Shown: one piece after another, positions 425 through 30,630 of the stretch
How positions within the stretch are numbered: position 1 is the first letter of the stretch
Layout: the number at the start of each line of letters is the position of its first letter
The notes under the pieces: model-generated
The model's input: the letters and a program-made list of their open reading frames with translations, nothing else
Database searches by the model: none
What the model was told of the DNA's origin: nothing
DNA from: Skeletonema tropicum
Taxonomy: Eukaryota; Bacillariophyta; Thalassiosirophyceae; Thalassiosirales; Thalassiosiraceae
Direction of reading: 5' to 3'
Length of the DNA stretch: 64,000 bases
NCBI GenBank assembly: GCA_037178625.1
Contig: CM074127.1
Location: 806,001-870,000 of the forward strand
Program-made: the position numbers and the translations under genes

Positions 425-732
425 CCAAAAAATTGATTTCAGCCAGCGCGATAAGTACAGCGAGTAAAAGTCACAACATTCACAAAATGCGGAAAAGCCT
501 TTCTTGTCGATGTTGAAGCCTCAATGTTGAAGCCTCTTCTACTTAAAAATGCTGCAAGGCAGTATTAATGAGTAGTGAACTGCAATAGGCCCGGCCTCAG
601 AGAGAGGAGGCCTTCTGCTTTGTTGTACATCATTATGTTGGGTTCGCCTCTTTGTTGGTCGCCAGCCGCCAGCACCTCATCATCATAAAACAAGGAGAAT
701 CAGAATCATCAATACTACACAACAACTGAAAT

Positions 733-1419
733 ATGTACATTAACGATAACAACAACATGACCAGCTCCACAGCAATGAAATCGATAGCAATGCTCCTTCA
801 CATCATCGAGTCCAAAGATTGGCAGAACTTCGAGAAACTTGCTCTTTCTAACCCCGAAACCTTCCGAGCTCTATGCAAGGCCATCGCTGGATGTGAAGAG
901 TTCCACGGTATGAATCTACTTCATGCTGTAGCCAGATGCGATCCACCATTGACCATTGTCGCCATGATGATCGTGTGCTGTCCCGATCTCCCATCTGCTA
1001 CCGATTGCCTTGGCAGGACTCCACTTCACGTGGCTGTGGGTCTAGGAGCGTCACCGCATCTGATCAAGCTCATCGCCCATTCGTGGCCTGCTGCATGCAT
1101 CTCGCCGGACGAAGATGGAAAGACTCCGTTACATATTGCTTGCGACACTTCTTGTGAGCTGTTTGCGGACGATTCTACCAAGACGTCTCCTTCACGAGCA
1201 TCACCGGACCATGATTCTATCAGGTACTTGCTCTCAGTGTGTCCCCATGCAGCTACAATGGAAGACCTAGACGAAATGAGTCCTCTGGAATATGCTATCC
1301 TGAGTGATGCAGAGATGGACACTGTCGAGCTGTTACAGACGGCGGCGTCGATATCTTTGAGGATACAGTCGCGATCGAATAGTCCAGTCAATGCTTTGCC
1401 AGTTTCCGTTGGAGCATGA
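733..1419 (+). CDS. ankyrin-repeat protein, array copy 1
   Basis: A 228-residue intronless protein with ankyrin-type helices. Two clear repeat signatures are visible, GRTPLHVAVGLGASPHLIKL near residues 95-114 and GKTPLHIACD near 129-138, with weaker flanking repeats (GMNLLHAVARCD; MSPLEYAILSD). No signal peptide, membrane segment or other domain is seen, so it is probably soluble and may bind a protein partner; the partner is unknown. Small ankyrin proteins of this style, with a gap inside the repeat that ends in a CPHAA motif, are common in diatoms. The start has in-frame ATG codons at residues 1 and 9; the first is taken because it opens the frame in all copies. Copies 1 and 4 carry His where copies 2 and 3 carry Asp (ASPH/ASPD). 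Confidence 0.85.
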   Translation: MYINDNNNMTSSTAMKSIAMLLHIIESKDWQNFEKLALSNPETFRALCKAIAGCEEFHGMNLLHAVARCDPPLTIVAMMIVCCPDLPSATDCLGRTPLHVAVGLGASPHLIKLIAHSWPAACISPDEDGKTPLHIACDTSCELFADDSTKTSPSRASPDHDSIRYLLSVCPHAATMEDLDEMSPLEYAILSDAEMDTVELLQTAASISLRIQSRSNSPVNALPVSVGA

Positions 1420-1518
1420 ATGTAGAGGAGAATATATATCGAATGTTGAAATAGTAGTGTGAACTTACTTGTAGAATAAAAGTAGACCAGAGCTAGCAGA
1501 CGTATCGTTAGTCTTTGT

Positions 1519-1859
1519 ATGAATTTAATTCTAGCACTAACTCACTGTGTCTCTGAGCTGACCATACTTTTCCGTGGGCTACCTATGTGTAGGCGAACTC
1601 TGACAGTGACTGCTAGCTCAACAGCTCCAACGTTTATTCTTGATCCCTCGACTCTAATAATACACCCAAATCAACAGAATCTTACCAAGCTTGCCTTACG
1701 AGCTATCAACACAGCACGCGATCTCGATCCAAACGACGATCAAAGGATTCTGCGTATCAAGTAGCAAGACAGGACGAAAGGAAGTAATCGTGATCCTGTC
1801 GCATGAGAAAGATTTTGATTGCATTGCAAGAGTGGAAGCCCAAGTCTGATCAAGATTGA
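1519..1859 (+). pseudogene. decayed Roadblock/LC7 dynein light chain-like relic, unit 1
   Basis: The first frame reads a GLPMCRRTL stretch, then LALRAINTARDLDPNDDQR and ILRIK before a stop. This resembles the Roadblock core, whose family pattern is roughly G-x-P-I-R-T-T, then VRDLDPxNDLxFLRIRSKK. The match continues in other frames: KTGRKEVIV after the stop, and KILIALQEWKPKSDQD in a third frame ending at 1859, like the family's LIVIQ C-terminus. At least two frameshifts are needed and no upstream exon was found, so it is read as a pseudogene. Roadblock proteins bind dynein intermediate chains, so the ancestor may have served cytoplasmic or flagellar transport. The assignment rests on recognised motifs only. 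Confidence 0.55.
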
Positions 1860-2747
1860 AAGAGCTGAATGAAGATGATTTGATCGATAGTGTGCGAGCG
1901 TTTTCGAGCGGAGAGTGGAATTCTACAACACAGTTAGATTTTCAGATACCGAATCATACTTCTAGTTAGTTAAATATTTTATGTGTGCTGTTACAAAGTT
2001 GTGGAATTACTTCAGCTTAATCTTAATCCCATCATCGCTGACGCGGCGCGACCAAGTCCCTAATGTAATCAGTTATCGTAACCGTAACCATGAAGCGCAA
2101 ATCAGTTCTTGAATCTTTCTTCTTGAGCAGAAGAGTGGATTTCGATGGTCTACTTAATTTTGATACAATTACGATAACGATACTCTTCTTATGTTTATGT
2201 GCTAAAAACTCACATGCGGAGAAAGCTTGCGGTCCATTTTCATCCATCATCTCATTGGCCGCAAGCATAGCTTTCATAGAGTACATAAGTATTGCGGTCT
2301 GAACTGAAACAATGCTAATGATGCTGATTTCCACCCATTGCAGGTGCCGGAGATAGCTTTGGAGTTGGAGCAGGTTTGGACGCTCATGTCAAACTAAAAG
2401 GGGAGGTACTGAGCAACTATAACGTTTGATGAGCGCGCAATCTCCATCCAAAACACACACTTGAGGTTGCTGGCCCAAGTAATCGTAGCAAAGACAACAC
2501 ATTTTCACATGTATTGGCGGTGCCAATCTATTGTGTCCTATGAGGTCCATCAATTGTAATACGATATAATCTTGAAAAAAATTGGTCATCTAGTCAAACC
2601 TAACCTGCCTCGGCAATGGTCTTTTCAAATATCCTTTTGCAATTGTTTCCCTCAAGCTGAGGTGTCCTGTCTGGCGAGAAAGGTAAAGGTATCTAGAGGT
2701 GAAATAAATATTAGATAGATCACAGTGCCATCCTTCAGACACCAGTA

Positions 2748-3090
2748 ATTAGCGCATGAGCCGCTTCTAGTGGCCCAATACTTGGTGGCGATACTATACA
2801 AGCACATTAGCACTGCCCTGCCCAGACGGAGCCCAGACGGACAGCTTACGTAGAAGCGATGCTACAGCCTCGGAGCTGTTCTGAGAGGCCCACAGCTTAC
2901 GTAGAAACGATGCTACAGCCTCTTAGTCATAGCTGTTCTGAGAGGTCGCCTGCGGTGCAGGCTGGCAGGCAGCACCACCACATCCAACCAAATCATATTC
3001 GTATCTATCTTCGTCAATTAGCGCATGAGCTGCTTCTAGAGTGGCCCATTATACTTGGTGGCGATAATGAGAAGTACATAGCACTGCGCA
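2748..3090 (+). repeat. nested short duplications inside the array unit
   Basis: A 51-base direct duplication starts at 2841 and 2892, sharing the ACAGCTTACGTAGAA core. A more diverged pair containing AATTAGCGCATGAG lies at about 2748 and 3017. The same arrangement is present in units 2 (from 5628) and 3 (from 8413), so the nested duplications are older than the large tandem amplification. Confidence 0.8.
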
Positions 3091-3519
3091 GACGTACTTA
3101 ATTTGTCTTCTACTTCTACACTTCTTATTGTAGCTCTTCCCTGTGTATGTCCGGTCGAATTACTCGAAAGACAAATGCGATCGGTATTCAAAGGTCATTT
3201 CTTCCCGCAGGATTCACGACCACAACCAAAAAATTGATTTCAGCCAGCGCGATAAGTACTGCGAATAAAAGTCACAACATTCACAAAATGCGGAAAAGCC
3301 TTTCTTGTCGATGTTGAAGCCTCTTCTACTTAAAAATGCTGCAAGGCAGTATTAATGAGTAGTGAACTGCAATAGGCCCGGCCTCAGAGAGAGGAGGCCT
3401 TCTGCTTTGTTGTACATCATTATGTTGGGTTCGCCTCTTTGTTGGTCGCCAGCCGCCAGCACCTCATCATCATAAAACAAGGAGAATCAGAATCATCAAT
3501 ACTACACAACAACTGAAAT

Positions 3520-4206
3520 ATGTACATTAACGATAACAACAACATGACCAGCTCCACAGCAATGAAATCGATAGCAATGCTCCTTCACATCATCGAGTCC
3601 AAAGATTGGCAGAACTTCGAGAAACTTGCTCTTTCTAACCCCGAAACCTTCCGAGCTCTATGCAAGGCCATCGCTGGATGTGAAGAGTTCCACGGTATGA
3701 ATCTACTTCATGCTGTAGCCAGATGCGATCCACCATTGACCATTGTCGCCATGATGATCGTGTGCTGTCCCGATCTCCCATCTGCTACCGATTGCCTTGG
3801 CAGGACTCCACTTCACGTGGCTGTGGGTCTAGGAGCGTCACCGGATCTGATCAAGCTCATCGCCCATTCGTGGCCTGCTGCATGCATCTCGCCGGACGAA
3901 GATGGAAAGACTCCGTTACATATTGCTTGCGACACTTCTTGTGAGCTGTTTGCGGACGATTCTACCAAGACGTCTCCTTCACGAGCATCACCGGACCATG
4001 ATTCTATCAGGTACTTGCTCTCAGTGTGTCCCCATGCAGCTACAATGGAAGACCTAGACGAAATGAGTCCTCTGGAATATGCTATCCTGAGTGATGCAGA
4101 GATGGACACTGTCGAGCTGTTACAGACGGCGGCGTCGATATCTTTGAGGATACAGTCGCGATCGAATAGTCCAGTCAATGCTTTGCCAGTTTCCGTTGGA
4201 GCATGA
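3520..4206 (+). CDS. ankyrin-repeat protein, array copy 2
   Basis: A 228-residue protein identical to copy 1 except for Asp instead of His in the second clear repeat (ASPDLIKL). It is identical in protein sequence to copy 3. The flanking DNA is also nearly identical to that of copies 1 and 3, so promoter and 3' region were duplicated with the gene. All copies lack a frameshift or stop, in contrast to the neighbouring Roadblock relics. That fits either purifying selection, recent duplication or gene conversion. Function is unknown beyond a likely protein-binding role. Confidence 0.85.
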   Translation: MYINDNNNMTSSTAMKSIAMLLHIIESKDWQNFEKLALSNPETFRALCKAIAGCEEFHGMNLLHAVARCDPPLTIVAMMIVCCPDLPSATDCLGRTPLHVAVGLGASPDLIKLIAHSWPAACISPDEDGKTPLHIACDTSCELFADDSTKTSPSRASPDHDSIRYLLSVCPHAATMEDLDEMSPLEYAILSDAEMDTVELLQTAASISLRIQSRSNSPVNALPVSVGA

Positions 4207-4305
4207 ATGTAGAGGAGAATATATATCGAATGTTGAAATAGTAGTGTGAACTTACTTGTAGAATAAAAGTAGACCAGAGCTAGCAGACGTATCGTTAGTC
4301 TTTGT

Positions 4306-4646
4306 ATGAATTTAATTCTAGCACTAACTCACTGTGTCTCTGAGCTGACCATACTTTTCCGTGGGCTACCTATGTGTAGGCGAACTCTGACAGTGACTGC
4401 TAGCTCAACAGCTCCAACGTTTATTCTTGATCCCTCGACTCTAATAATACACCCAAATCAACAGAATCTTACCAAGCTTGCCTTACGAGCTATCAACACA
4501 GCACGCGATCTCGATCCAAACGACGATCAAAGGATTCTGCGTATCAAGTAGCAAGACAGGACGAAAGGAAGTAATCGTGATCCTGTCGCATGAGAAAGAT
4601 TTTGATTGCATTGCAAGAGTGGAAGCCCAAGTCTGATCAAGATTGA
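4306..4646 (+). pseudogene. Roadblock/LC7-like relic, unit 2
   Basis: This repeats the relic of unit 1 with the same stop after ILRIK and the same frame changes, so the gene had already decayed before the unit was amplified. Confidence 0.55.
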
Positions 4647-6310
4647 AAGAGCTGAATGAAGATGATTTGATCGATAGTGTGCGAGCGTTTTCGAGCGGAG
4701 AGTGGAATTCTACAGCACAGTTAGATTTTCAGATACCGAATCATACTTCTAGTTAGTTAAATATTTTATGTGTGCTGTTACAAAGTTGTGGAATTACTTC
4801 AGCTTAATCTTAATCCCATCATCGCTGACGCGGCGCGACCAAGTCCCTAATGTAATCAGTTATCGTAACCGTAACCATGAAGCGCAAATCAGTTCTTGAA
4901 TCTTTCTTCTTGAGCAGAAGAGTGGATTTCGATGGTCTACTTAATTTTGATACAATTACGATAACGATACTCTTCTTATGTTTATGTGCTAAAAACTCAC
5001 ATGCGGAGAAAGCTTGCGGTCCATTTTCATCCATCATCTCATTGGCCGCAAGCATAGCTTTCATAGAGTACATAAGTATTGCGGTCTGAACTGAAACAAT
5101 GCTAATGATGCTGATTTCCACCCATTGCAGGTGCCGGAGATAGCTTTGGAGTTGGAGCAGGTTTGGACGCTCATGTCAAACTAAAAGGGGAGGTACTGAG
5201 CAACTATAACGTTTGATGAGCGCGCAATCTCCATCCAAAACACACACTTGAGGTTGCTGGCCCAAGTAATCGTAGCAAAGACAACACATTTTCACATGTA
5301 TTGGCGGTGCCAATCTATTGTGTCCTATGAGGTCCATCAATTGTAATACGATATAATCTTGAAAAAAATTGGTCATCTAGTCAAACCTAACCTGCCTCGG
5401 CAATGGTCTTTTCAAATATCCTTTTGCAATTGTTTCCCTCAAGCTGAGGTGTCCTGTCTGGCGAGAAAGGTAAAGGTATCTAGAGGTGAAATAAATATTA
5501 GATAGATCACAGTGCCATCCTTCAGACACCAGTAATTAGCGCATGAGCCGCTTCTAGTGGCCCAATACTTGGTGGCGATACTATACAAGCACATTAGCAC
5601 TGCCCTGCCCAGACGGAGCCCAGACGGACAGCTTACGTAGAAGCGATGCTACAGCCTCGGAGCTGTTCTGAGAGGTCCACAGCTTACGTAGAAACGATGC
5701 TACAGCCTCTTAGTCATAGCTGTTCTGAGAGGTCGCCTGCGGTGCAGGCTGGCAGGCAGCACCACCACATCCAACCAAATCATATTCGTATCTATCTTCG
5801 TCAATTAGCGCATGAGCTGCTTCTAGAGTGGCCTATTATACTTGGTGGCGATAATGAGAAGTACATAGCACTGCGCAGACGTACTTAATTTGTCTTCTAC
5901 TTCTATATACACTTCTTATTGTAGCTCTTCCCTGTGTATGTCCGGTCGAATTACTCGAAAGACAAATGCGATCGGTATTCAAAGGTCATTTCTTCCCGCA
6001 GGATTCACGACCACAACCAAAAAATTGATTTCAGCCAGCGCGATAAGTACTGCGAATAAAAGTCACAACATTCACAAAATGCGGAAAAGCCTTTCTTGTC
6101 GATGTTGAAGCCTCTTCTACTTAAAAATGCTGCAAGGCAGTATTAATGAGTAGTGAACTGCAATAGGCCCGGCCTCAGAGAGAGGAGGCCTTCTGCTTTG
6201 TTGTACATCATTATGTTGGGTTCGCCTCTTTGTTGGTCGCCAGCCGCCAGCACCTCATCATCATAAAACAAGGAGAATCAGAATCATCAATACTACACAA
6301 CAACTGAAAT

Positions 6311-6997
6311 ATGTACATTAACGATAACAACAACATGACCAGCTCCACAGCAATGAAATCGATAGCAATGCTCCTTCACATCATCGAGTCCAAAGATTGG
6401 CAGAACTTCGAGAAACTTGCTCTTTCTAACCCCGAAACCTTCCGAGCTCTATGCAAGGCCATCGCTGGATGTGAAGAGTTCCACGGTATGAATCTACTTC
6501 ATGCTGTAGCCAGATGCGATCCACCATTGACCATTGTCGCCATGATGATCGTGTGCTGTCCCGATCTCCCATCTGCTACCGATTGCCTTGGCAGGACTCC
6601 ACTTCACGTGGCTGTGGGTCTAGGAGCGTCACCGGATCTGATCAAGCTCATCGCCCATTCGTGGCCTGCTGCATGCATCTCGCCGGACGAAGATGGAAAG
6701 ACTCCGTTACATATTGCTTGCGACACTTCTTGTGAGCTGTTTGCGGACGATTCTACCAAGACGTCTCCTTCACGAGCATCACCGGACCATGATTCTATCA
6801 GGTACTTGCTCTCAGTGTGTCCCCATGCAGCTACAATGGAAGACCTAGACGAAATGAGTCCTCTGGAATATGCTATCCTGAGTGATGCAGAGATGGACAC
6901 TGTCGAGCTGTTACAGACGGCGGCGTCGATATCTTTGAGGATACAGTCGCGATCGAATAGTCCAGTCAATGCTTTGCCAGTTTCCGTTGGAGCATGA
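6311..6997 (+). CDS. ankyrin-repeat protein, array copy 3
   Basis: A 228-residue protein identical to copy 2, carrying the Asp variant. The unit around it has its own private changes, including the 6-base deletion near 7940 and a G-to-A change in the Roadblock relic. The unit is therefore a separate genomic copy and not simply an assembly repeat of copy 2. Function is inferred only from the ankyrin motifs. Confidence 0.85.
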   Translation: MYINDNNNMTSSTAMKSIAMLLHIIESKDWQNFEKLALSNPETFRALCKAIAGCEEFHGMNLLHAVARCDPPLTIVAMMIVCCPDLPSATDCLGRTPLHVAVGLGASPDLIKLIAHSWPAACISPDEDGKTPLHIACDTSCELFADDSTKTSPSRASPDHDSIRYLLSVCPHAATMEDLDEMSPLEYAILSDAEMDTVELLQTAASISLRIQSRSNSPVNALPVSVGA

Positions 6998-7096
6998 ATG
7001 TAGAGGAGAATATATATCGAATGTTGAAATAGTAGTGTGAACTTACTTGTAGAATAAAAGTAGACCAGAGCTAGCAGACGTATCGTTAGTCTTTGT

Positions 7097-7437
7097 ATGA
7101 ATTTAATTCTAGCACTAACTCACTGTGTCTCTGAGCTGACCATACTTTTCCGTGGGCTACCTATGTGTAGGCGAACTCTGACAGTGACTGCTAGCTCAAC
7201 AGCTCCAACGTTTATTCTTGATCCCTCGACTCTAATAATACACCCAAATCAACAGAATCTTACCAAGCTTGCCTTACGAGCTATCAACACAGCACGCGAT
7301 CTCGATCCAAACGACGATCAAAGGATTCTGCGTATCAAGTAGCAAGACAGGACGAAAGGAAGTAATCGTGATCCTGTCGCATGAGAAAGATTTTAATTGC
7401 ATTGCAAGAGTGGAAGCCCAAGTCTGATCAAGATTGA
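7097..7437 (+). pseudogene. Roadblock/LC7-like relic, unit 3
   Basis: Same decayed reading frames as in units 1 and 2. One further G-to-A change near 7394 is silent in the third-frame KILIALQEW segment. Confidence 0.55.
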
Positions 7438-9088
7438 AAGAGCTGAATGAAGATGATTTGATCGATAGTGTGCGAGCGTTTTCGAGCGGAGAGTGGAATT
7501 CTACAGCACAGTTAGATTTTCAGATACCGAATCATACTTCTAGTTAGTTAAATATTTTATGTGTGCTGTTACAAAGTTGTGGAATTACTTCAGCTTAATC
7601 TTAATCCCATCATCGCTGACGCGGCGCGACCAAGTCCCTAATGTAATCAGTTATCGTAACCGTAACCATGAAGCGCAAATCAGTTCTTGAATCTTTCTTC
7701 TTGAGCATGAGAGTGGATTTCGATGGTCTACTTAATTTTGATACAATTACGATAACGATACTCTTCTTATGTTTATGTGCTAAAAACTCACATGCGGAGA
7801 AAGCTTGCGGTCCATTTTCATCCATCATCTCATTGGCCGCAAGCATAGCTTTCATAGAGTACATAAGTATTGCGGTCTGAACTGAAACAATGCTAATGAT
7901 GCTGATTTCCACCCATTGCAGGTGCCGGAGATAGCTTTGGAGCAGGTTTGGACGCTCATGTCAAACTAAAAGGGGAGGTACTGAGCAACTATAACGTTTG
8001 ATGAGCGCGCAATCTCCATCCAAAACACACACTTGAGGTTGCTGGCCCAAGTAATCGTAGCAAAGACAACACATTTTCACATGTATTGGCGGTGCCAATC
8101 TATTGTGTCCTATGAGGTCCATCAATTGTAATACGATATAATCTTGAAAAAAATTGGTCATCTAGTCAAACCTAACCTGCCTCGGCAATGGTCTTTTCAA
8201 ATATCCTTTTGCAATTGTTTCCCTCAAGCTGAGGTGTCCTGTCTGGCGAGAAAGGTAAAGGTATCTAGAGATGAAATAAATATTAGATAGATCACAGTGC
8301 CATCCTTCAGACACCAGTAATTAGCGCATGAGCCGCTTCTAGTGGCCCAATACTTGGTGGCGATACTATACAAGCACATTAGCACTGCCCTGCCCAGACG
8401 GAGCCCAGACGGACAGCTTACGTAGAAGCGATGCTACAGCCTCGGAGCTGTTCTGAGAGGTCCACAGCTTACGTAGAAACGATGCTACAGCCTCTTAGTC
8501 ATAGCTGTTCTGAGAGGTCGCCTGCGGTGCAGGCTGGCAGGCAGCACCACCACATCCAACCAAATCATATTCGTATCTATCTTCGTCAATTAGCGCATGA
8601 GCTGCTTCTAGAGTGGCCCATTATACTTGGTGGCGATAATAAGTACATAGCACTGCGCAGACGTACTTAATTTGTCTTCTACTTCTACACTTCTTATTGT
8701 AGCTCTTCCCTGTGTATGTCCGGTCGAATTACTCGAAAGACAAATGCGATCGGTATTCAAAGGTCATTTCTTCCCGCAGGATTCACGACCACAACCAAAA
8801 AATTGATTTCAGCCAGCGCGATAAGTACTGCGAATAAAAGTCACAACATTCACAAAATGCGGAAAAGCCTTTCTTGTCGATGTTGAAGCCTCTTCTACTT
8901 AAAAATGCTGCAAGGCAGTATTAATGAGTAGTGAACTGCAATAGGCCCGGCCTCAGAGAGAGGAGGCCTTCTGCTTTGTTGTACATCATTATGTTGGGTT
9001 CGCCTCTTTGTTGGTCGCCAGCCGCCAGCACCTCATCATCATAAAACAAGGAGAATCAGAATCATCAATACTACACAACAACTGAAAT

Positions 9089-9775
9089 ATGTACATTAAC
9101 GATAACAACAACATGACCAGCTCCACAGCAATGAAATCGATAGCAATGCTCCTTCACATCATCGAGTCCAAAGATTGGCAGAACTTCGAGAAACTTGCTC
9201 TTTCTAACCCCGAAACCTTCCGAGCTCTATGCAAGGCCATCGCTGGATGTGAAGAGTTCCACGGTATGAATCTACTTCATGCTGTAGCCAGATGCGATCC
9301 ACCATTGACCATTGTCGCCATGATGATCGTGTGCTGTCCCGATCTCCCATCTGCTACCGATTGCCTTGGCAGGACTCCACTTCACGTGGCTGTGGGTCTA
9401 GGAGCGTCACCGCATCTGATCAAGCTCATCGCCCATTCGTGGCCTGCTGCATGCATCTCGCCGGACGAAGATGGAAAGACTCCGTTACATATTGCTTGCG
9501 ACACTTCTTGTGAGCTGTTTGCGGACGATTCTACCAAGACGTCTCCTTCACGAGCATCACCGGACCATGATTCTATCAGGTACTTGCTCTCAGTGTGTCC
9601 CCATGCAGCTACAATGGAAGACCTAGACGAAATGAGTCCTCTGGAATATGCTATCCTGAGTGATGCAGAGATGGACACTGTCGAGTTGTTACAGACGGCG
9701 GCGTCGATATCTTTGAGGATACAGTCGCGATCGAATAGTCCAGTCAATGCTTTGCCAGTTTCCGTTGGAGCATGA
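9089..9775 (+). CDS. ankyrin-repeat protein, array copy 4
   Basis: A 228-residue protein identical to copy 1, including the His variant, with one private silent change (CTG to TTG near 9687). Its coding region is almost identical to the other copies, but its 3' flank (9780-9985) is clearly more diverged and then ends. This contrast suggests that coding regions were homogenised, for example by gene conversion, after the terminal copy had begun to diverge. Confidence 0.85.
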   Translation: MYINDNNNMTSSTAMKSIAMLLHIIESKDWQNFEKLALSNPETFRALCKAIAGCEEFHGMNLLHAVARCDPPLTIVAMMIVCCPDLPSATDCLGRTPLHVAVGLGASPHLIKLIAHSWPAACISPDEDGKTPLHIACDTSCELFADDSTKTSPSRASPDHDSIRYLLSVCPHAATMEDLDEMSPLEYAILSDAEMDTVELLQTAASISLRIQSRSNSPVNALPVSVGA

Positions 9776-15904: not shown

Positions 15905-18900
15905 TCAAAATTCCAAGAAATGCAATGCACTGAGAAGACTGATCATGCAGCAAACGAAGTGTAAAGAAAATGCCGAGGCAACCCCATCATTGGCAGTGAT
16001 CCTAATGTCCTCCAACCAAGGAGGTATTGCATTATTTCCTCTGTTGATTGGAGGATTCGTTGGCAGCTTATAGAAATCAGCAAATCCATCTGTTTCTGAT
16101 ACAACTTTCGGTGACGGTGCTGGAGTCACTGGTTTAGATTTGGTAGGTGATGTGGTTGGTATTTCATAAGGACAATTCACATCATCGGCGAAATTGCACA
16201 GCTCAAGTTCCAAGTCGAACAAGAGATTCTTTCCACAGTCAAGAGACGCTCCCTCGTTACCATTACTGCACCAGAAATATTGTTTACAGCCAGGTTTCGC
16301 ATCCCACCCTGTGTATCCCACCCTGCATTTCGGCTTGATCGATGCGTTAGGTTCGGCGTTGCTGCTATCGCTGACAGATGACGCATCAATCCCATAACAG
16401 TATTGATTGACCCACCTCTCACCATGACATTTGCCGCTTACTTTTTCGAACTTGTATCCTTGCCCACAAGAATACATTGGACCAATCTGGCCATTGTTAC
16501 ATTCAAAATATTCGTTGCAATTTGCTCTGGTATGATATCCAACAAAGAAATCTGGACATAGCTCGTGAGAGTTGTCTTTTACAGGTGACGTTGGCTTGTT
16601 GTCACTTTGCACTATGTTGTTAGTGCCCGGTTCACTGCTTGTAGTGGAGAAACCCTCTTTTCGTTCACAATCGTAAGGAATACAAAGCATTCCAAGAGGA
16701 CATAGTTCGTCAACACAGCGACGAGCGGTAGAGCATGACTTTTCCAATTCTCTTTCACTGACTGCACAGTAAAGGTTTACTCCGTTGATAACCTCCTCAT
16801 CGCTGTTGCCACTGCTGCTTTTTGACGGCGAAAGTGTTGGATTCTTCGAAGTCGGAGCAGGCACCTTTGGAGAAACAAAATTACAATCAATGTTCTCAAA
16901 ACACTTCTGACCATCGGAACATGGGTTGTCGTTGCTACATGGGGGTGCATTCCAACATGTTTTCTGCAGATGGGGATAATTTGTGGCACAAATTCCGCTA
17001 AAAGAAGCTATCGGACTTGAACTCGGTGCATTAGACGGACGAAGTGAAGGTTGTTGCGTTTCTTCAGTGCAAATCACGTTTCCCCAACAGTAAGTCCCTT
17101 CTGGACAGGGTGGATCGACACCATCATTGCATGTTGGTGCAGTGAAACATCCTGTCTTAAGGTCTGCGTGTCGTTTTGCGCAGTAGTTTTGAACTTTCAC
17201 TGCCGATTTATAGGCTGTAGTTGATGGTTTCATTGATGAAGTTTCTGTTGGCGTAGCTGATGGTGTTCGTGTAGGTTCCGATGAGGGCGGCGGCGTTGAT
17301 GGGGCCACCTCGCAATATTTATCAAACAGCATGAAACATTTCAGATCATTCGTAGGACATATGCCTTCCGGGCAATTGTATCCGTTTCTTCCACAATTGT
17401 CACTGGCTTCCGATATTGTGGCACCGCACCATAAATTCATTGCATTGTTTACTTCTGAAACGTGCGACCAATCTTTCTCTTCGTCTTTTGCTCCATTGGA
17501 ACCTACAGTTGCCGTGGGCCGAGGTTGGGGTTGAGGCAATTGAGGTGTGGGCCGAGGCTGAGGTTCTGGTTGAGGTTCAGGCTGAGACTGAGGTTGCGGC
17601 TGAGGTTGTGGCAGTGGCTGAGGTTGAGACTGAGAAGTATCCACTGTCAACTCTGAACTAGAAATGGTCGGACTGCTTGATGGACCTTTGACCCGAAGAC
17701 TTCCATCTTCTGCAAACAATACCTCCAATACCTCTGCAGCAAAAAAAAAAAAGATTGTGAGCATTCGAGTGAAGCGATCAAGATTGCAATGCAAAATGAA
17801 TTACTCACTTTTGAAGTTTTCCCTCCTTTCCTGTGCACCGTCCAATTCTCCAGTGCCACAAGGCGGGTTATGACAGCCTCGATTCACAATACCACTAACA
17901 GCATCTATAAATTCTCCATCATCTCGAAATCCTCTCCGTACAAACTTTTGTAAATTCTCCATATAATTCCAGTCTTCCTTGTCATAGGTTTGGACAGTGC
18001 TCATCCAATAGAACATTCCGGCTATCCATTTCAATTCTGGGTGTTCTTTCCGATTGCAGATTGCACTGGGATCTTTGCAAAAGTCAATGTTGCTATATCG
18101 TGCTCGTCGTCCTTCATCGGCTGCACGTTTCCCTAGGAAATAACTATAATATATGGTTGGCAAACAACAACATGAGCATGACGACTCCAACATGATTTCC
18201 ATCATATCAAATTTCAAAGAAAAGCATCGTCAATATACAAGAGTACACTACTACTCACTTCAACATTCCAAAATTACAAATCCCACTAGTCTGAATAACC
18301 CCCCGTCCCCACCAACAACACCCCTCGACATCCATCCTTCCACTCCCATTCTTCACCGCCCCCGACCGATCATGCCTCCCGGCCTTTTGACCCACATAAT
18401 CCTCACAATACATCGGTGGGTCCATCCATGGAAAATCACATTCATATTCATAATCCCAAAATCCCGTATAGGGGTATTTACTCTTGGGTCCACAGAATAA
18501 TGGTCCGGGTGCACCATACCAATGTGCATGTGTCGATGCAGTCATTTCCATAGTGGGATCGACGTCACATTGGAAATGTTCGGTACCATTTTCACATTTG
18601 TAATCTTGATAACTTTGACCTAATTGTCCACAGGAATTGCTGATGGGGTATTGACCATTGGCATTGACTTCCCAATTGTTTTCATCACAGGAGTCGTATT
18701 TGATTGTTTCTTTCATACTTTGTGCGAGAAAGGCGGCAATGTTGACTAGACCAATGGTGGTTCCTGCTACTCCCGAGATGTCCTCGCCTAAATAAAAGGT
18801 CATGTCGTTGATACCCTCAAGGTACATGATTTGTAATCCTCTCATAAATCCATCGTATCTATATTGTGTACTCGGCAACCAATCATTCCAAGCAGTTTGA

Positions 18901-19449: not shown

Positions 19450-19842
19450 GGTGAGGCTGCAGCTTCTTGCTGGGATTCAATGCTGCCGACGCCAATGTTT
19501 CATGCACTGCTATGATTTTCAATGCATGATGAGTGATGAGCGAGATCTTGCATCTTGCAGAAAGATGAAGCGAGGTGGGGCTGTGATGGTTTGTGCAGGC
19601 CTGGAGTACAGTAGGTTGGAGTGGCCCTTCCCGCCTCTTTACATATGTACCAATTCCCACATGGTTTTATGTGTAAGATACGTATCTTTCTTTTCTCTCC
19701 GAGAACAGAGAACTACTCTTCTGCCTTGCGTGCAATGATGTCAGTGTTGCAGCTTGCAGCTTAACACGCACCCAAACCTATATACTATACCGAAGGGTCG
19801 AGAGGACAATACAAAAGTAATAGCATTCCAAGAGGCAGCAGC
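19450..19842. other. divergent upstream region between chitinase and MFS transporter
   Basis: This 393-base stretch separates two genes transcribed away from each other, so it should contain both promoters. No clear motif was recognised. Confidence 0.5.
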
Positions 19843-21735
19843 ATGGTCCGATACTTCGCCCTTTTCATTATTGCCATCCTCTCGAAGAATGAACGACACA
19901 TCACATGCTCAAATTTCGCCGTAGAGGCGTTTTCAAACATCCATACATCGTCGTCACCATCACGTCGTCATCCACTGCCAAGCCGAAAAAGCATGCATCA
20001 TCCGTTCCGACATGACACAGGAAATAAGGCAGGCGCATACAATCGAGTGAACACAAATTCTCTTGTATCAGATGATGATACTGATTTATTTCGCAATGAG
20101 CAACATCACAGTGCACTGACGCTAAGAGCAACACCATTTGACGTAGAAGAAGAACAGAGCAACAACACGGATGAAGATGAAAAAGAAATAATACCACCAT
20201 CGCAGCAGTCCGAGGCTGCTTCCTCTTCCTCATTTCGAGATATTTCCATCATCGTATTTCCCCTCCTCCTCGTCTACATCTCCAATCAATGGTCACGCTA
20301 CTCCATTTCCTACCTTGTGGATTTTTCTTCACCCGACAATACTGCAGCAGCTGCTGCTGCAGCATTCACAGCCATGAATGTCGATTTGGAATTTACAAAA
20401 TCACAATATGGCCTATTGGCTTCGACAGCATTTACATTTCTATTTGCATTCAGTTCACTCATTGCAGGGAGTTTGGCAGATAAATACGATCGTAAATTAT
20501 TAACGTTATCCTCTTGTTTCGTATGGACATTGGCAACAGTGGCACAAAGTCAAGCACAGTCCTACAATGAAGTTCTAATCGCACGTGTCATCATGGGTGG
20601 GGCATGTGCCTTCGCCGTACCAGCCGCATACACCTTGATAGCGGACAAAATCTCCAAGGACAAACTAGCCTTTGCAAATTCGCTATATGGATCGGGGGTG
20701 TATTTGGGAGGTGCGTTGGCTAGTTTGAGTCTACTATTGGATGAGAATGTGGGGTGGAGGGGGACTATGGGGTTGATTGGTGGGTTTGGTGGTGTTGCTG
20801 CGGTTGTTTCGGGTGTATTGTTGCCGTCGGATGGTGATAGAAATAAAAATGATGGAATTGTGATGGTAGATGATGAGGATGATGATGCGAGTAGTAGTTC
20901 AATGATACAACAGTCGGATAATGATGATGGAGAGGAAGAAAACAACAACAACAATCTCTTTAGCAGCGCGGGACAAATCCTCTCTATACCACGAGTGCAA
21001 CTCATTTACCTCGCATCCTTTCTTCGGTTTTGCTCTGGTCTGATGATTGGTGTGTGGGCGGCACCGTATTTCAAACAAGCTTTTCCGGATGATGCTGCTC
21101 AATATGCGGTTGTTAATGCACTTATTGTGGGTGGATTGGGAATGACAAGTGGAATTTTAGGTGGTTATATTGCTGATGGATTGGTGTCTTGGGTCAAGAA
21201 AGGTGATGAAGAATCCTTGTCTGGAAATACAGCAGAAGGAGAGCTTCCATCAGCAAGTGGGACATCCATCGTTCGTGATAACTTTGACGAAGAAACGATA
21301 CGCTTACTGCTCCCCATCGTCGGTTCTCTTCTTGCTATCCCCGCGTGGTATCAAGCTACACACGCCGGCGCAAATTTCGAAGCGTCCATGTTTTGGCTCG
21401 GCGTTGAATACCTCGTTGCCGAATGTTGGTTTGGACCAACTATTGCTGTGCTACAATCTTCTGTAGGTGCATCCAGAACAGGTACTGCTCAAGGGCTATT
21501 CGTGTTGACTGGAGCATTCGCTAATTCTGCACCGACATTACTCGGATGGGTTTATGGAAACAAAGTTATTGACTCAACATCTTCTTCATCATCAGAAGTT
21601 CTTGCAAGCCTTTTATCTGTAGGTGTTTGTGCAGGGTATTTACTGAGTTCTGTTTTCTTCCTTATCAGCGCGAGCGCAAGTGCAAATGGAGGTGGAGGGA
21701 TGCAGCAAGTAGCTCAGGACACGAAAGATGGATGA
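19843..21735 (+). CDS. major facilitator superfamily transporter
   Basis: A 630-residue intronless protein. After a polar N-terminal region of about 125 residues come about 12 hydrophobic segments in two halves. The MFS signature between helices 2 and 3 is visible as GSLADKYDRKLLTLSSC, followed by RVIMGGACAFAVPAAYTLIA and GSGVYLGGALASLSLLL, typical of Spinster-like or sugar-phosphate-like MFS carriers. An acidic and Asn-rich cytoplasmic loop of about 45 residues (DDEDDDASSSS, then EEENNNNN) separates the halves. The N-terminus has a weak hydrophobic start and a VEAFSN stretch that could be a plastid motif, but this is not convincing. Substrate cannot be told from sequence. Confidence 0.85.
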   Translation: MVRYFALFIIAILSKNERHITCSNFAVEAFSNIHTSSSPSRRHPLPSRKSMHHPFRHDTGNKAGAYNRVNTNSLVSDDDTDLFRNEQHHSALTLRATPFDVEEEQSNNTDEDEKEIIPPSQQSEAASSSSFRDISIIVFPLLLVYISNQWSRYSISYLVDFSSPDNTAAAAAAAFTAMNVDLEFTKSQYGLLASTAFTFLFAFSSLIAGSLADKYDRKLLTLSSCFVWTLATVAQSQAQSYNEVLIARVIMGGACAFAVPAAYTLIADKISKDKLAFANSLYGSGVYLGGALASLSLLLDENVGWRGTMGLIGGFGGVAAVVSGVLLPSDGDRNKNDGIVMVDDEDDDASSSSMIQQSDNDDGEEENNNNNLFSSAGQILSIPRVQLIYLASFLRFCSGLMIGVWAAPYFKQAFPDDAAQYAVVNALIVGGLGMTSGILGGYIADGLVSWVKKGDEESLSGNTAEGELPSASGTSIVRDNFDEETIRLLLPIVGSLLAIPAWYQATHAGANFEASMFWLGVEYLVAECWFGPTIAVLQSSVGASRTGTAQGLFVLTGAFANSAPTLLGWVYGNKVIDSTSSSSSEVLASLLSVGVCAGYLLSSVFFLISASASANGGGGMQQVAQDTKDG

Positions 21736-23504: not shown

Positions 23505-23527
23505 GTAGTCACCACAGTTCGTTTTCC

Positions 23528-24338
23528 AAATAGCCATCAGGGGAAAAAGCGGCTTAAAATCGGCCCCATTTGAGCCTTTTCACTTAAGCGCAACTTTACC
23601 GCTTAAAAGGAGCACTTTCTCTAGCTTCCCCGCTTCTCCTGGAAGAGAAATAGAGTTCTTGCCTGGCTTGAGCATGTAAGTAGAAGAACGAGGCGATGTA
23701 GCTTAATAATATCATAGATGACAACGCACTGGATTGCAACAAATATATTTACCTCATATGTATACTTTTACATAACAAACAAACATTTAATCAGCGACAG
23801 CGTCATCAACTTCCATGCAAGCAGACATTTTTTGTTGCAACTGAGGAGACGAAGGCTTTGCATTGCCAACGTCCGAAGAAGGAAGACTCTTTGCCATGAT
23901 GATACTGAGTTTCCTTTATCCTGATCAGAATCAATGACGGCAGTATTGACAACGGTGGAGAGTGATGTTACGAGGTGAAAGGTGAACCATTTTCTGCTCT
24001 AGATAATTGTAGATAATTTCGCCCCTGGAGGGCCAACCATGACGTACTTTAAGATTTCCGTTAATTTTAATTTTATCTTTACCTCCATTCCTCATTCGAT
24101 GGGTCGACCTTTGAGCTGAATGGTGTCACATCATGACGTGGCATCACTCAAACACCATTCAAATGATGTCACATCATGACGTGGCACCATCCGGATGGCT
24201 GTTCTTTGATGACGTGTCAATTCCTACTGCTACGAGAAAGCCCGTAGGATTTTGTACCAGGGCTACGTAGGCGCTTAAATGCGCTTAAAAACAGGCCGAT
24301 CTGAGCGCCAGAGGCGCTTTTCCCCCTGATGGCTATTT
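23528..24338. repeat. 24-base inverted repeat flanking about 760 bases
   Basis: Arms at 23528-23551 and 24315-24338 match at 23 of 24 positions (AAATAGCCATCAGGGG core) in opposite orientation, and both continue inward with GCTTAA-rich sequence and a TCGGCC word. They may be ends of a non-autonomous DNA element. No target duplication was recognised and the interior has no supported gene. Confidence 0.55.
24040..24215 (+). promoter_or_regulatory. cluster of four TGACGT (CRE/bZIP-like) sites upstream of the fusion gene
   Basis: TGACGT occurs at 24040-24045, 24134-24139, 24177-24182 and 24210-24215. The middle two lie in a direct repeat sharing GTCACATCATGACGTGGCA. The cluster is 232-407 bases before the start codon at 24447. 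In diatoms, TGACGT elements bound by bZIP factors are known as CO2/cAMP-responsive sites of a carbonic anhydrase promoter; a similar role here is inference only. Confidence 0.45.
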
Positions 24339-24446
24339 CCAAAGCTACCACCTTGATGTCGTAGGTACTTAGATCTCTCGAGGAAGGTGTATATTCTAAC
24401 ATATCACCTCTTTTGAATTATTCTTCCATAGATAGGCAACATCAAC

Positions 24447-27400
24447 ATGAATAAGGACAAGAACAATGACCATTGTCCCAGTCCCAGGGACGACAGCAAC
24501 GACAGCCTCGTCATTGCTCGTGAAAAGAAGAATGAAATGCTTCGTGTAGCTACTGATATGCTTGCATCAAAGGGCCATGCTTCCACGCAGTACCCTCCCC
24601 AATGGATGCCAAGCCCAACACTGGTAGACAAGCTTCCACGAGTCTTCTGGACTCTCTTCTGCATCATGTTCAATGCACTGTTTACGTGGCTCTCCATTGT
24701 TGCTGAGAAAAGATCAACCTTAACCGCCCTCACTGCCATTTATCCTTCGATCATCATCGCCACTGCACTATGGTTCTGTTTTGGATTCCCGCTAGAGTAT
24801 GTTGAAAAGCTAAACTTCGGGGCTGTGCAGATCCTTGTACTTGGGGCATTTTTCAATTTAGTCTTTGGAGAAAACAACTTCCTTACACAAGCCTTGATAA
24901 GTGAAAAAGTTGGTTCATTTATTGGAACTTCGATTCTTTCGCTTGGGACGATTGTGGTGAGTAGTGTGTTGATAGTTGATCTCCTTTCTACCTTGACCGC
25001 GCATGTATTATCTCAGTCTATTGCATGCTCACACAACTCACGTCTCTGTATCACATAGTTCTCTTACTGTACGTTTATCTTGGGTCCATGGGAATTTATG
25101 ATTGGAAGTCCTCTTCTTTCAATTGGTCTTTTGATTCGAGCTTGTGCTACCTTTATGGCACTATTTGATATCAGCATCGAAGCAACTGTGGGGAAACTTA
25201 ATTTAGCAGCTTCTCCTTTTGTGCTCCTTGCATTGGGTTTCGTTGGCAAGAAGGCATACCAGCTAATGCGTCTGCCTATTCTTGGAAGTGATAATTACCG
25301 TTTTTTTGGGCTGGTGTTTTACGGTGGCAGCATTTTGGCAAATGTCTTGTTGAGTATTGTTGAGAGCTCACGAGGTGTGCCAGATGAGACATACAAGTTT
25401 GTACTGGGTATCACAAGCTCCTTTGCATTCTTTGGCACGCATGTGTTCCTATTGGATTCAAAGAGAGGAAAGGATCACTGTAATGCCCAGCTTGAAGATC
25501 GATACCCAAGTACAGTGTACCTTGTTCGATCTGATACAGGCTTTATCGCTGCAAATTGGTGTAGCTTGGTTGCATTTCTTCTGAACTTTGGCATGACGAT
25601 TGCATATCTGAAGGATGGAGATACTTCTCATGGCTACAACTTCACATCCAATATGGCTATTGCAGAGTTTGTTGTGACTCTTGTTACAACTATCTCCCTC
25701 TTCCTCCTCTGTCTGGTTGCTTTCTACCCATCCTATTGTGACGCAATCTCCCTGAAAGAGAAGAATGTCGCAAGAATCATGCTCCAGATAATTTGTGGCT
25801 TCGTTGTCTTGGCCATGGGAAATTTTTGCAGCAGTATTCTCAAGTTAGTATGGAGTCTCGAGGAATCGTCGGATTTGAGGCTTAAATCGGCTCTCTACAC
25901 CTCAGATGTTGTGATGATGGCAGGATCGCTGATCCTTGTCATAGCAAATTGGCCTGTTGATGGGACCCCCTCTAAGGCGGCTTTGATTCGATGTCCAGTA
26001 TTATTGACAACCAAATCCAAAAGTGAGGGGGGGTGGGGGGTTAGAACGCCCCCAAATGCAGAACGCCAGATACCCAATGGGCACCCAATATACCCAAAAT
26101 AGCTTGTGTCACATCCAAATATTTCTGTGTCATAGTGGTGTCATACCGGTATTAGAAGTCTTGTTGCTGAGACAATATCATCTTCTAGTTGGCACCGTGT
26201 GGTTCTGCACATTGCTGTTGTTCTACAAAGTCTTGGACTGGGCCCTCAAAATGAGGGGGGGGGGATCAATAATACTGGACATCGAATCAAAGCCGCCTAA
26301 GATTGTTGTTTTCCAACCAAGCACGTGGGAGAATGCAAATCATCCATGCAATTACGTTCTACTCTCTGCAGTCTGGATGTTTATTGGGACTGTATCTGTA
26401 TCTAAGCTTTCGTCGTGCCATTCTATTGCATCATTATCCATTGCGTGGGCGTTTCTTGTGCTGACACTACATTTCAACATGGCTTATTATGTGTTTGAAA
26501 GCATGACTTTGGCGTTGGAGGATGATGACAACGAGAATTTAAATAAGGTCACCTTTCGTTCAGACAATGATAGGTTTCTTGGCAATGAATTGCCACATCA
26601 AGACTGCGACGTACTAATCAGCGGAGGTGGAATAAGTGGTCTCTTCCTTGCATGTATCCTTGGGAAAGAAAAAGTGAATGTGATAGTATGTGAGTTTCTA
26701 ACAACGTTTCTCCATGTCCGATGTTTCCCGGGATCCTCTTACTCCTACTCCTACTATGATACTTACCCATACGTTTTGCTTTTACTACATGGTAAAAATA
26801 ATAGGCGAGAGACGTGCTGAGTCCGTAACTGATGCAAGATTCGCTGTCATCAACTCTGCAAGCGCAGAACACATGGAGCAAGTCCTTGATCCTGATATTT
26901 TTCAGGCACTTCTTTCACGTGCTCTTCCTGAGTCAACTCACTACGGAAGTATGCTGCTCAGTGGCTTCGGTGATTCAAATGCAAAAGTGCTGGCAGCTGC
27001 AAACTCACCATCTCGAAGCTTTTTGATGGAGCATTTACATGAAATGGATGATTGGACAGAATCAAGACTTTTGGGGTGAGAAAAATAGCGACTCTGAGGA
27101 CTCAATGTGTTGAATGATTCATGTTTTTCATTTCCCTTTCCCTATACTTATATACACGAACACTCACAATTTCTTCTTCGCTTTATGTCTTGAAGTTCCA
27201 AACATGCCAAACATCTCACAATAAGATGCATGCAATCACATCAGGAAGGTACGTGTATTTACAACAAATCCAAAGTAATATCTACATTCACTATGAAAGT
27301 TCAATGAAAGCATTTCTTGTCTCACAAACTTTGGTATCCATTTGAAACTCTGCACCACTTCAACAGATGTTCTTAAGATGCAATTATCTCGGTATTCCAA

Positions 27401-30400
27401 TGTTCAGTTGATGGAAGGATGGTCACTTGATGACTTTCAGGTGAGCGAAGGAGTTGGAGTGAAGGCAAAGCTTCTTGAGGTGAATGAGGATGAAGATGGG
27501 AAGCCGCAAGATGATGGAAACGACAGACAAGTTAATGTGTCTGCCAAGTATCTAGTAGGATGTGATGGTCCAGCTTCAATAGTGGCAAAGAAGTTAAAGA
27601 TCAGGTTTGATGGACTACTGAATTTGGCGAACACAAAGTCACTCCTCGCTAAGGCACCTGGCCTCTATAAGAAGATTGTCAACTCTGTTGGCAACACACA
27701 TCAATATCAGGTGAGTCTTTATCTCTAAGTAGTGTCTTCAGTATTCAGATGCTACATTTTGTCCCATTACGAATGTGCTTTACATATACGTATACGATAT
27801 GATGCTGACAAATCTAAACTCAACTTGTATCAGGTTATCAAGAGAAGAATTTTGGACTTGCCGCTATTGTTGCTGCAGATCCATCACAAGATCTCTTTAA
27901 CTTCTTGTTTCTGTTTGGGGACAAAGTCAAGGCTGCTGCGCCGGAAGAGATCTGTAGAAAGTTTCTTGGTACAGATGACTTTGAAGTCGTTCAAAATCGG
28001 CGGTGGTATTGGAACTTCTTTGTCGCTAGGAAATTTCGCTATGGAAAACAAGTCTTTCTCTGCGGAGACAGTGCCCACTCTTGGCCACCTTTTGGTGGTC
28101 TGGGCGGGAACGTAGCTTATGGGGATGGTAAGCTATTACCAAAGATTTTCCTTGTTATTTTGCATCCAAGTCTTGTGTCTCTCATCCCTTAACCTACTTC
28201 TATTATACCCCTGGATAGCGATCAATCTGGGTTGGAAATTAGCCCTTTCATGCAAGGGCAAGGGCCAAGGCCAAGGAGGATCAGAACTCTTATTAGATTC
28301 TTATGCGATTGAACGTAGGCAGCAAATTTTACAGACATCCCTATACGTTTTGCGTTCGACACCAAATCCACATCTCATGAAACTTCTGACTTCAAGCGTC
28401 TTCTACAATCCTCTATACATGCCTGTTATCAAGGCTGGGTGGTATCATCATAATTCAGGAAAGCATCCAGGAAACCACTTTTGTCAAAGTGGCGTTCAAT
28501 TTGGCATCAAGCTCAACTTCTCACCAACCATTGTTCGAGAAGAGATCATTCCTCCCGATGATCCCTCTTGTGATTACAAGCCTACGTTCCTTCCTAGCAG
28601 TCGTTTTGTGCATTTGGCTTTTCCCAACGGGGGTAGCACCTTGGATTACATCTCATCCTCTGGTTATACTGTAATTGTCGTCAAGGTGAAGTGCGCTGAA
28701 ATTGCTAACACGGTTGCTGCGTCGATCCTCGCACGTGGATTACCAGCTCAAGTTGTCGTGTTGCCAAGTATCAATATTGAAAAGTACCAAGGCAATCAGA
28801 AAGTCATTGCTAATTTGTTGTCCAATGAAAATGGTCTTGTGGTAAGACCAGATTATGTAATTGCGTGGCGCATTGATGAGTCAAGCATACCACACGGGCC
28901 ACAGGTTGAAGAAGGAGTGTCAAAAATTACTGGTCTTGATTACAATGGAGGGTGTCTGCGTGACCTTTACCAGTCCTCTCAGGATGCGAAGACAACGAAG
29001 AGCTACCAAAGCTGGCTAACGCGTGAGTTCCGTTACAATCAAAGGCCGTACAAGTTTAGATTTCCCATGGCTGGTGAGTGTCTCTATGATTATGATGTAC
29101 CTACATATTTCTTCGATATTCTTTGGCTTACCACAGATTTTAAACAGTGACTGTTGATAATGTTGATAAAGATACGGCAATAAAAATGGCGAAGAGGAGA
29201 ATGATGTCTAAGGGTGCAGACTTTCGAACAACTACTAAACAAGGAGATGAAAATTTCGAGACGAATACCTCTAGGAAAGAAGAACAAGAACAAGTCAGGC
29301 TCAATAGGTCTGAATCCGATGACAATAATATCAATAATGGGTCTGTGATACAACCATCTGGCTTTGAAACTAAGAATGCGATCCCGACAACACCCCTGCC
29401 AAAGCTTATTCAGCTTGCAGCTGAGAGACAAGCCGCTGGTCTGCCAGTTTTTAACTTTGCTGTTGGAAACCCAAGCTTGGAACCACCTCAAGAAATACTT
29501 GCAAGCCTCTCAAAGCTTATTGACACCACTTTGAAAGGACAGAGGAGTGGTATGTTCAAGTACACTCCGCCTGCTGGGATCTTTGGTCTTAGGAAGTTCA
29601 TCGCTAATGATGTCCGAGACTGGCAGGGTGGTCTTCCAAACTTGACCGAAAATCATATCGTGGTTACTCTTGGTGCACAAAGTGCAATTGTGAATATATT
29701 TGAAGCAATACTGAAGCCTGGAGATCATGTCTTTACTCAGACACCATTTTATCCATCATATGGCCTCAGTGCAAAACTATGGGGTGCCGAGTCAAAGAGC
29801 ATCAACTTTGAAAAGGAAGACATGAACTTCAGTATTGATATGAGTCATTTGCAGCAACTTGCCCTGGATTCAGGGGATAAACTCCGTTTGATTGCGCTTT
29901 GCTCTCCTGGAAACCCAACTGGAAAGTCGATGGCGGAGGAAACCTTGAAGAATATTTGTTCCCTCGCTGAATCTCACTCTAAACGTTTTGGCCGTGATGT
30001 CTGGATTTTGATGGATAATACGTACCGTCGACTCAAGTTTGACAGTCAATAGAGGCCCCAATCTTCCCTTTCTACAAACAGTCACTTGTTGTGTCGTCCT
30101 TTAGCAAGGATTTGAGCCTTGCTGGAGAGCGAGTTGGGTACGTGGCTGTCCATCCCAATGCTCGTCATTCTGACAGTCTTGTTCGATGGCTCGCAAACAA
30201 CAATGATAGACTTGGAAATTTGTCACCACCATCGTTGATTCAACATGCACTCTTGGATGTTTATGAGACGCATGGTAAGTTGCCATCTCTTGTTGACATA
30301 TACGAGGAGAGGGTCACTTCAATGTTTATAGAACTCAACAGAATTGGACTCGTATGCTCCAAGCCCGATGGAGCATTTTACTTGCTCCCACGCATGCCGG

Positions 30401-30630
30401 CCAAACTTGGAAACGACGATGTTAAATTTGCAATGATGTTGGCTGACAAAGGAGTGTTGTGTGTTCCAGGCTCACTGTTTGGCGTTGCAGGGTATGTTCG
30501 AATTGCTGCGTTGCCATCTCTTGAAGAGATACAAGAGGCTTGCAAAATCATCGAACAAGTTGTCAAGACTGGATTTAGTGAAGAAGACTCAAAGGATTCG
30601 CAGGAAATGCGAGGAATCTTTGACTTATAA
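24447..30630 (+). CDS. triple fusion: multipass membrane domain, FAD monooxygenase, PLP aminotransferase (interrupted)
   Basis: Exons that keep phase: 24447-24956, 25059-25976 plus 26302-26689 (split by a 320-base element), 26805-27075, about 27311-27710, about 27845-28127, 28219-29073 and 29148-30630; roughly 1700 residues. About 10-12 membrane helices fill residues 40-545. The FAD part (about 576-1190) shows DVLISGGGISGLFLAC, then VCERR, LVGCDGPASIVAKKL and GDSAHSWPPFGGLGGN with DAINLGWKLAL, as in aromatic hydroxylases, plus their thioredoxin-like tail (LVVRPDYVIAWRI). The PLP part shows FAVGNPS, SPGNPTGKS, DNTYRRL and SFSKDLSLAGERVGY (PLP lysine). A single exon carries both membrane and FAD sequence, and the 29074-29147 intron joins FAD to PLP in frame. 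A 1-base frameshift lies near 30050. Exons at 27076-27330 and 27711-27845 are uncertain. Substrate unknown. Confidence 0.75.
25977..26296. mobile_element. 320-base TIR element in the fusion gene exon, 5-base target duplication
   Basis: A perfect 31-base inverted repeat starts GCGGCTTTGATTCG at 25977 and ends as its complement at 26296. CTAAG flanks it on both sides (25972-25976 and 26297-26301). Removing the element and one CTAAG joins TCT AAG to ATT GTT in frame (Ser-Lys-Ile-Val), which shows that the insertion hit coding sequence. The element has no coding capacity of its own that I can support. If spliced from 25977 to 26301 it would be a GC-AG intron that restores the protein exactly. Confidence 0.85.

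Follow-up and report, generated by a model that had tools for sequence, protein, structure and literature searches.

Predicted fusion of a membrane domain, a FAD monooxygenase and a PLP aminotransferase in a conserved gene family with a transposon-interrupted copy in Skeletonema tropicum

As a class, the group A hydroxylases use NAD(P)H and O2 for the hydroxylation of aromatic substrates, and GxGxxG, DG and GD motifs are the signature of these FAD monooxygenases. To our knowledge, the group A FAD aromatic hydroxylases are separate enzymes. Aminotransferases are in turn recognized by a catalytic lysine together with motifs of the PLP site (SK, NP, D..Y, R). A flavin monooxygenase and an aminotransferase serve one pathway in the case of kynurenine 3-monooxygenase and kynurenine aminotransferase, as well as in that of TAA1 and YUCCA in auxin synthesis. 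Moreover, a description of methanobactin operons names the class I/II aminotransferase MbnN, present in some operons, and the PF01494 monooxygenase MbnF among the biosynthesis genes (PMC3621798).

Here, we analysed a window of 64,000 nucleotides from the diatom S. tropicum (contig CM074127.1), in which a gene at positions 24447-30630 appears to encode both types of enzyme behind a membrane domain. We consider it rather probable (roughly 0.6) that this gene belongs to a conserved family encoding one polypeptide with about 14 membrane helices, a group A FAD monooxygenase and a fold-type-I PLP aminotransferase. Judged by sequence, the fusion of the three parts is real, and the identity of the domains, their order in the window, the conservation of both joins and most of the signature residues are evident at this level.

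The splice model of this region was assembled from the reading of the DNA and a listing of open frames, and was refined stepwise. In its final form it comprises nine exons on the plus strand and a second frame up to position 30630, with no stop in its first 1507 codons; earlier models, in which phases were wrong or an exon measured only 23 nt, were discarded in its favour. The protein searches, the domain and PDB scans and the conserved-site test described below were performed with an earlier model, or with pieces of it, that lacks ten residues of exon 5. The gene ends at 24447 and 30630, as given in a first-pass annotation of this DNA, fit the sequence. Exon 1 (24447-24956), which is indicated by its open frame, a GT donor and the aligned relatives, contains the start codon, the N-terminal segment and the first hydrophobic segments, and exon 2 (25059-25976) encodes the bulk of the membrane domain, as seen in the relatives P0001-P0011. 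Exon 3 (26302-26689) comprises the last membrane helices, a linker and, from about position 26608, the FAD-binding loop DVLISGGGISGLF. In line with the first-pass annotation, the DNA and the splice model thus have hydrophobic segments running into DVLISGGGISGLF within a single exon. Exon 4 (26805-27075; CERR...TDARFAV) belongs to the FAD domain. Exon 5 (27196-27248), with a length of 53 nt, encodes SKHAKHLTIRCMQSHQE, which resembles SRYASQLPLRIMQSHQE of P0001; it is phase-compatible and required for the phase of the gene model. The FAD domain also occupies exon 6 (27367-27710), including the GCDGP motif, and exon 7 (27845-28127), including CGDSAHSWPPFGG, the acceptor of which is uncertain. The junction 27710/27845 between these two exons is the weakest of the model: the in-phase choice adopted, the single one worked through, leaves out three residues of P0001. 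Exon 8 (28219-29073) contains the end of the FAD domain and the C-terminal part of the monooxygenase (VRPDYVIAWR), as aligned with P0013-P0019. As likewise annotated before, removal of the intron 29074-29147 joins the tail of the monooxygenase to the aminotransferase in phase (one base plus two bases). Exon 9 starts in a first frame (29148-30048) with the conserved linker TTTKQGDE and the N-terminal half of the aminotransferase (PF00155 positions 3-179), and a second frame (30049-30630) encodes the C-terminal half, including SSFSKDLSLAGER (PF00155 positions 211-361).

Relatives were drawn from databases of genomes and metagenomes. The search with the whole protein, in which 7989 candidates were scored, returned P0001 only, a protein of 968 aa that extends in a single frame from the membrane domain through the GDSAHSWPPFG motif and is 48% identical to the window. 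When the membrane part was used, 7998 candidates were scored and 11 were returned (P0001-P0011, 41-88% identity). All of them contain the membrane domain and ten continue unbroken into GGGISGL; P0010 stops short of this motif, and P0001 and P0011 extend beyond the first FAD motif. The search with the rear half likewise scored 7998 candidates and returned 11, comprising eight family members (P0012-P0019, 49-88% identity) and three distant proteins (P0020-P0022, 27-29%) that match the aminotransferase alone or the monooxygenase alone. Seven of the eight members (P0013-P0019) contain the monooxygenase tail (RPD.VIAWR type), the conserved linker and the aminotransferase in one frame, and P0012 begins where the last intron of the window is located. 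Both joins thus recur in relatives, which argues that the adjacency is not due to chance, and a chance adjacency of three genes was ruled out on this basis. The first-pass annotation had proposed one gene for the membrane domain, the FAD monooxygenase and the PLP aminotransferase, to be refuted by homologues that always occur as three separate genes. The proposal holds at each join, and the relatives, which keep both, contradict the refuting case.

Among the proteins returned by the front-half and rear-half searches, none carries the membrane domain, the monooxygenase and the aminotransferase together in a single open frame. The whole order therefore rests on the overlaps, on the sizes of the contigs and on the window itself. 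With regard to the contigs, the longest ones are of equal size in three pairs of a front-half and a rear-half relative (22779 for P0003/P0014, 5806 for P0006/P0015 and 6889 for P0007/P0013), suggesting that both halves of each pair are located on one contig. The lack of a relative with the complete frame would also fit adjacent separate genes that were wrongly joined. However, either join is spanned by uninterrupted open frames in relatives, and we regard this reading as very improbable. The scan of a prokaryote genome collection with the alignments A2 and A1 yielded 28 and 32 pattern matches, none of which was confirmed, and in a viral collection four loci with 25-29% identity matched the aminotransferase part alone; these scans rest on two short patterns each, and absence from them is weak evidence.

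A simple hydropathy scan of the window protein indicates about 14 hydrophobic segments ahead of the FAD loop. In the six front-half relatives counted, we obtained 9 (P0001), 10 (P0003), 9 (P0004), 11 (P0006), 13 (P0007) and 11 segments (P0009), so that the number ranges from 9 to 14 across family members including the window. A structure prediction of the membrane part, as proposed in the first-pass annotation, gave 14 long helices for P0003, followed by a low-confidence linker and the strand-helix-strand of the FAD loop; with a mean pLDDT of 63.1 and an alignment of 11 sequences, this model is of low confidence. No family of Pfam or NCBIfam is matched by the first 577 residues, and the membrane domain has no significant sequence match in the PDB. 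Likewise, the fold search with the low-confidence membrane model revealed no outstanding match among those listed (otopetrin at rank 7, E 0.68), and because the confidence of the model is too low the fold cannot be called new. In its own genome (78.4 Mb, 125 contigs) the membrane domain is present at one locus only. It is tempting to view the 14-helix domain as a new transporter or receptor family whose cargo would pass straight to the fused enzymes, as a single-chain import-and-convert machine of algae, a view that we consider rather unlikely.

The second part of the protein matches FAD_binding_3 (PF01494) with an E-value of 9.6e-39 and 134 bits, as compared to the Pfam cut-off of 22. The motifs of this part are located in the model at position 584 (GGGISG), 778-782 (GCDGP) and 902 (GDSAHSWPPFGG). 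Among the monooxygenase families of NCBIfam, PRK06126 reached the best score, 224 bits versus a cut-off of 445. The match of the C-terminal part to Rng_hyd_C (PF21274) stays below the cut-off of 27.5 bits in the window (15.1) as well as in P0016 (20.5) and P0018 (16.7). In the rear-half model of P0015, which has a mean pLDDT of 59.1 and very low confidence over residues 1-169, residues 170-257 show the order strand-helix-strand-helix-strand-strand-helix. We take this order to resemble that of the thioredoxin-like domains which some such hydroxylases carry at this place. Elsewhere in the genome, three equal-scoring FAD_binding_3 matches lie about 4.1 kb apart at C8:2015067-2023616 and two more at C8:2295752 and 2303750; these are probably tandem copies.

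Two pieces of the window match Aminotran_1_2 (PF00155) with E-values of 6.1e-21 and 3.1e-21 (75.5 and 76.4 bits, cut-off 19.7), and the unbroken P0016 reaches 160.6 bits. The window pieces contain SSFSKDLSLAGER, CSPGNPTG, MDNTYRR and YVRIA, and S-K, CSP.NP and D.TY are invariant in the rear-half alignment A2. The NCBIfam scores of P0015 are below the cut-offs (PRK06836, 265.6 of 376 bits; GntC, 178.5 of 415 bits), and those of the window pieces are lower. PDB 3ele is the best solved relative of the aminotransferase part, which on the family side comes closest to PRK06836, and in the fold search with the rear-half model of P0015 the matches listed were solved aminotransferases. Pairs of a hydroxylase and a PLP enzyme occur in arginine-derived natural products, and the PLP domain might accordingly be a dehydratase or cyclase acting on the product of the hydroxylase instead of a transaminase. 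In favour of such an activity, both window pieces and P0015 have a PLP cyclodehydratase family in second place among their matches, all eight rear-half relatives match this family at 1e-10 or better, and capreomycidine synthase is among the matches of P0015. However, a plain aminotransferase family ranks first for both window pieces and for P0015 and also reaches the best E-value across the eight members, and the best solved structures are aminotransferases; the scores shown for these aminotransferase and cyclodehydratase families are all below cut-off. We consider a dehydratase or cyclase clearly unlikely and retain the aminotransferase.

The first-pass annotation had treated the sequence that precedes exon 26302-26689 as an intron. 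This sequence turned out to be a young transposon of 322 bp (25976-26297) within the coding sequence, and all 11 front-half relatives, including P0002 with 88% identity, read through the site without interruption. The inverted arms, the target duplications and the copies in the genome identify it as a MITE-like non-autonomous DNA transposon that interrupts a coding exon. The arms comprise 37 nt with 97% identity when the duplication is included, about 32 nt of which are within the element, and a TAA duplication flanks the insertion (25973-25975 and 26298-26300); exon 2 of the model ends on the first base of the transposon. Strong matches (E 2.5e-83 or better) occur at 29 other places of the genome, the best of them with 98% identity along the whole element and 99% along 301 nt. 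The family is young, MITE-like and about 320 bp in length, with at least 29 other strong genome matches, some of which may be located in genes. When exon 2 is not spliced, it runs into the transposon and meets an in-frame stop at 26100-26102. Exact removal would require a GC-AG pair at the ends of the element, and splicing of 25977-26301 as such an intron would restore the old frame exactly because the target was TAAG; a GTGAG is also present inside the transposon at 26023. The duplication survey covered 30 loci on the plus strand only, with rows for 13. The seven copies with both ends readable are flanked by varying 3-bp duplications (TAA, TAG, TTG, TGA, TAC, GTA and AAG), and in view of this variability the notion of a dedicated intron-making element was set aside.

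A second lesion affects the aminotransferase, which had been annotated in one frame. Near position 30049 the frame breaks: one frame stops at the TAG at 30050-30052, and the remainder (from 30043) is found in another frame. At the matching position the frame is unbroken in all eight rear-half relatives (P0012-P0019). The break may be a real mutation, a single allele or an assembly error. The large neighbouring frames for GatB (719 aa) and eIF3c (779 aa) are open, a mild argument against an assembly rich in such errors. To further assess the state of the gene, we counted departures from sites that are identical in the other relatives compared. In the aminotransferase, 6 of 118 such sites differ in the window and 5 of 118 in P0012 (P0017 left out), and in membrane residues 203-607 the window and P0002 each depart at 5 of 80 sites (P0010 and P0011 left out). 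The window hence keeps conserved sites about as well as its unbroken relatives, which suggests that it was under selection until recently.

It is quite possible, at not much below even odds, that the family is real and that the only copy of this species has recently been disabled by the transposon and the frame break, which would be compatible with the three-part polypeptide as the product of the family. The in-frame stop within the transposon, the frame break with its TAG in the aminotransferase, the 98-99% identity of the transposon to other copies, the single locus of the membrane part and the relatives that are unbroken at both lesions all speak for a dead gene. On the other hand, the conserved sites are kept about as in unbroken relatives, so that any loss must be recent, a GC-AG splice could remove the transposon and restore the frame, and the one-base frame break may be an assembly error or confined to one allele. 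Conversely, the gene might still work, provided that splicing removes the transposon as a GC-AG intron (25977-26301) and that the frame break stems from a sequencing error. The TAAG at both ends of the transposon permits exact removal and the remaining protein is well kept in the conserved-site test, whereas the donor is weak (AAG/GCGGCT), the variable 3-bp duplications of other copies indicate that the element is not built for splicing, and the neighbouring GatB and eIF3c frames are open. We regard a working gene as a tentative option, less probable than a recently lost one. Taken together, the first-pass annotation was correct with respect to both joins and missed the transposon and the frame break; its interpretation likewise stands for the single gene, and an intact working gene in this copy is not supported.

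The same annotation had tentatively related a cluster of TGACGT sites upstream of the gene to regulation by light or CO2. The cluster is present, with five sites within 1 kb. However, four of them (24040, 24134, 24177 and 24210) are located within a multi-copy element (23523-24343) with 32-nt terminal inverted repeats of 88% identity, and only the fifth (23459) is outside. This element gives 60 match rows in its own genome, the best other copies being 98% identical, and the whole window contains 25 TGACGT sites versus 27 expected. The position of the four sites and the expected count weaken the regulatory reading, for which the cluster was set aside as evidence, although transposons can still carry control elements. 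Nested in the upstream element at about 23995-24077 is a further repeat, some 82 bp long, which by itself is listed at 20 other places.

As to the neighbourhood, four frames of 229 aa start at 730, 3517, 6308 and 9086 (window 730-9772), about 2.8 kb apart, and are identical over the 70 residues compared; they probably constitute a tandem array, and the first of them matches ankyrin repeats. A frame of 631 aa on the minus strand (15908-17800) matches chitin-binding peritrophin-A, and an MFS transporter frame of 656 aa (19765-21732) is located upstream of the fusion gene on the same strand. Across the genome we observed 128 chlorophyll-binding matches. The respective families are large on contigs C5, C6, C13, C16 and C17, with many equal-scoring copies, several of them in tandem. 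For one chlorophyll-binding protein the best matches were long LHCI chains, followed by fucoxanthin chlorophyll a/c proteins, none of them at the stricter limit. In addition, a partial match to the RuBisCO large chain (positions 1-150) is present at C11:2701780-2702220 within an open frame of 1034 aa.

Within the proposed three-part polypeptide, the membrane helices would be followed by a FAD monooxygenase of group A (PHBH type), including its C-terminal part, and then by the aminotransferase. The membrane domain would anchor the protein and perhaps take up or carry the substrate. With an even number of helices, the N-terminus and both enzymes would face one side of the membrane, where the enzymes could process a single metabolite one after the other: a substrate that is aromatic or derived from an amino acid would be hydroxylated, and its amino and keto groups would be exchanged. 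To judge from the domains, the protein thus most likely is anchored in the membrane and converts such a metabolite in two steps; it may, as formerly suggested, constitute a self-contained step of a pathway. The copy of this genome, apparently its only one, would have been selected until recently and would then have received the transposon in the membrane exon and the frame break in the aminotransferase.

Literature searches with narrow terms, a weak negative, revealed no description of such a protein, in agreement with the first-pass annotation, which knew of no precedent for this order. The enzyme domains are known, and the domain order and the membrane domain are without description as far as searched. 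The locus thus adds a conserved three-part architecture whose membrane domain matches neither the family libraries nor the sequences of solved structures searched, and the fused enzymes, which possibly catalyse consecutive reactions, indicate a pathway that is as yet unassigned. Moreover, the copy in the window, with a transposon freshly inserted in an exon from which GC-AG removal would restore the frame exactly, provides a test case for transposons that become introns or kill genes.

In contrast to the fusion described here, the kynurenine enzymes as well as TAA1 and YUCCA are separate proteins. With the group A FAD aromatic hydroxylases (PHBH/MhpA type, PF01494) the family has in common FAD_binding_3, GGGISG, CDGP and GDSAHSWPPFGG, and it differs from them by the approximately 14 membrane helices before and the aminotransferase after this domain. 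With the class I/II PLP aminotransferases (PF00155, PRK06836, PDB 3ele) it shares the fold and the active-site motifs, whereas here the aminotransferase is fused behind a monooxygenase by a conserved linker. The MbnF family is a weak match (119.1 of 800 bits), and in methanobactin operons MbnN and MbnF are encoded by separate bacterial genes, each found in only some operons (PMC3621798), whereas the present gene appears to encode both enzyme types in one polypeptide.
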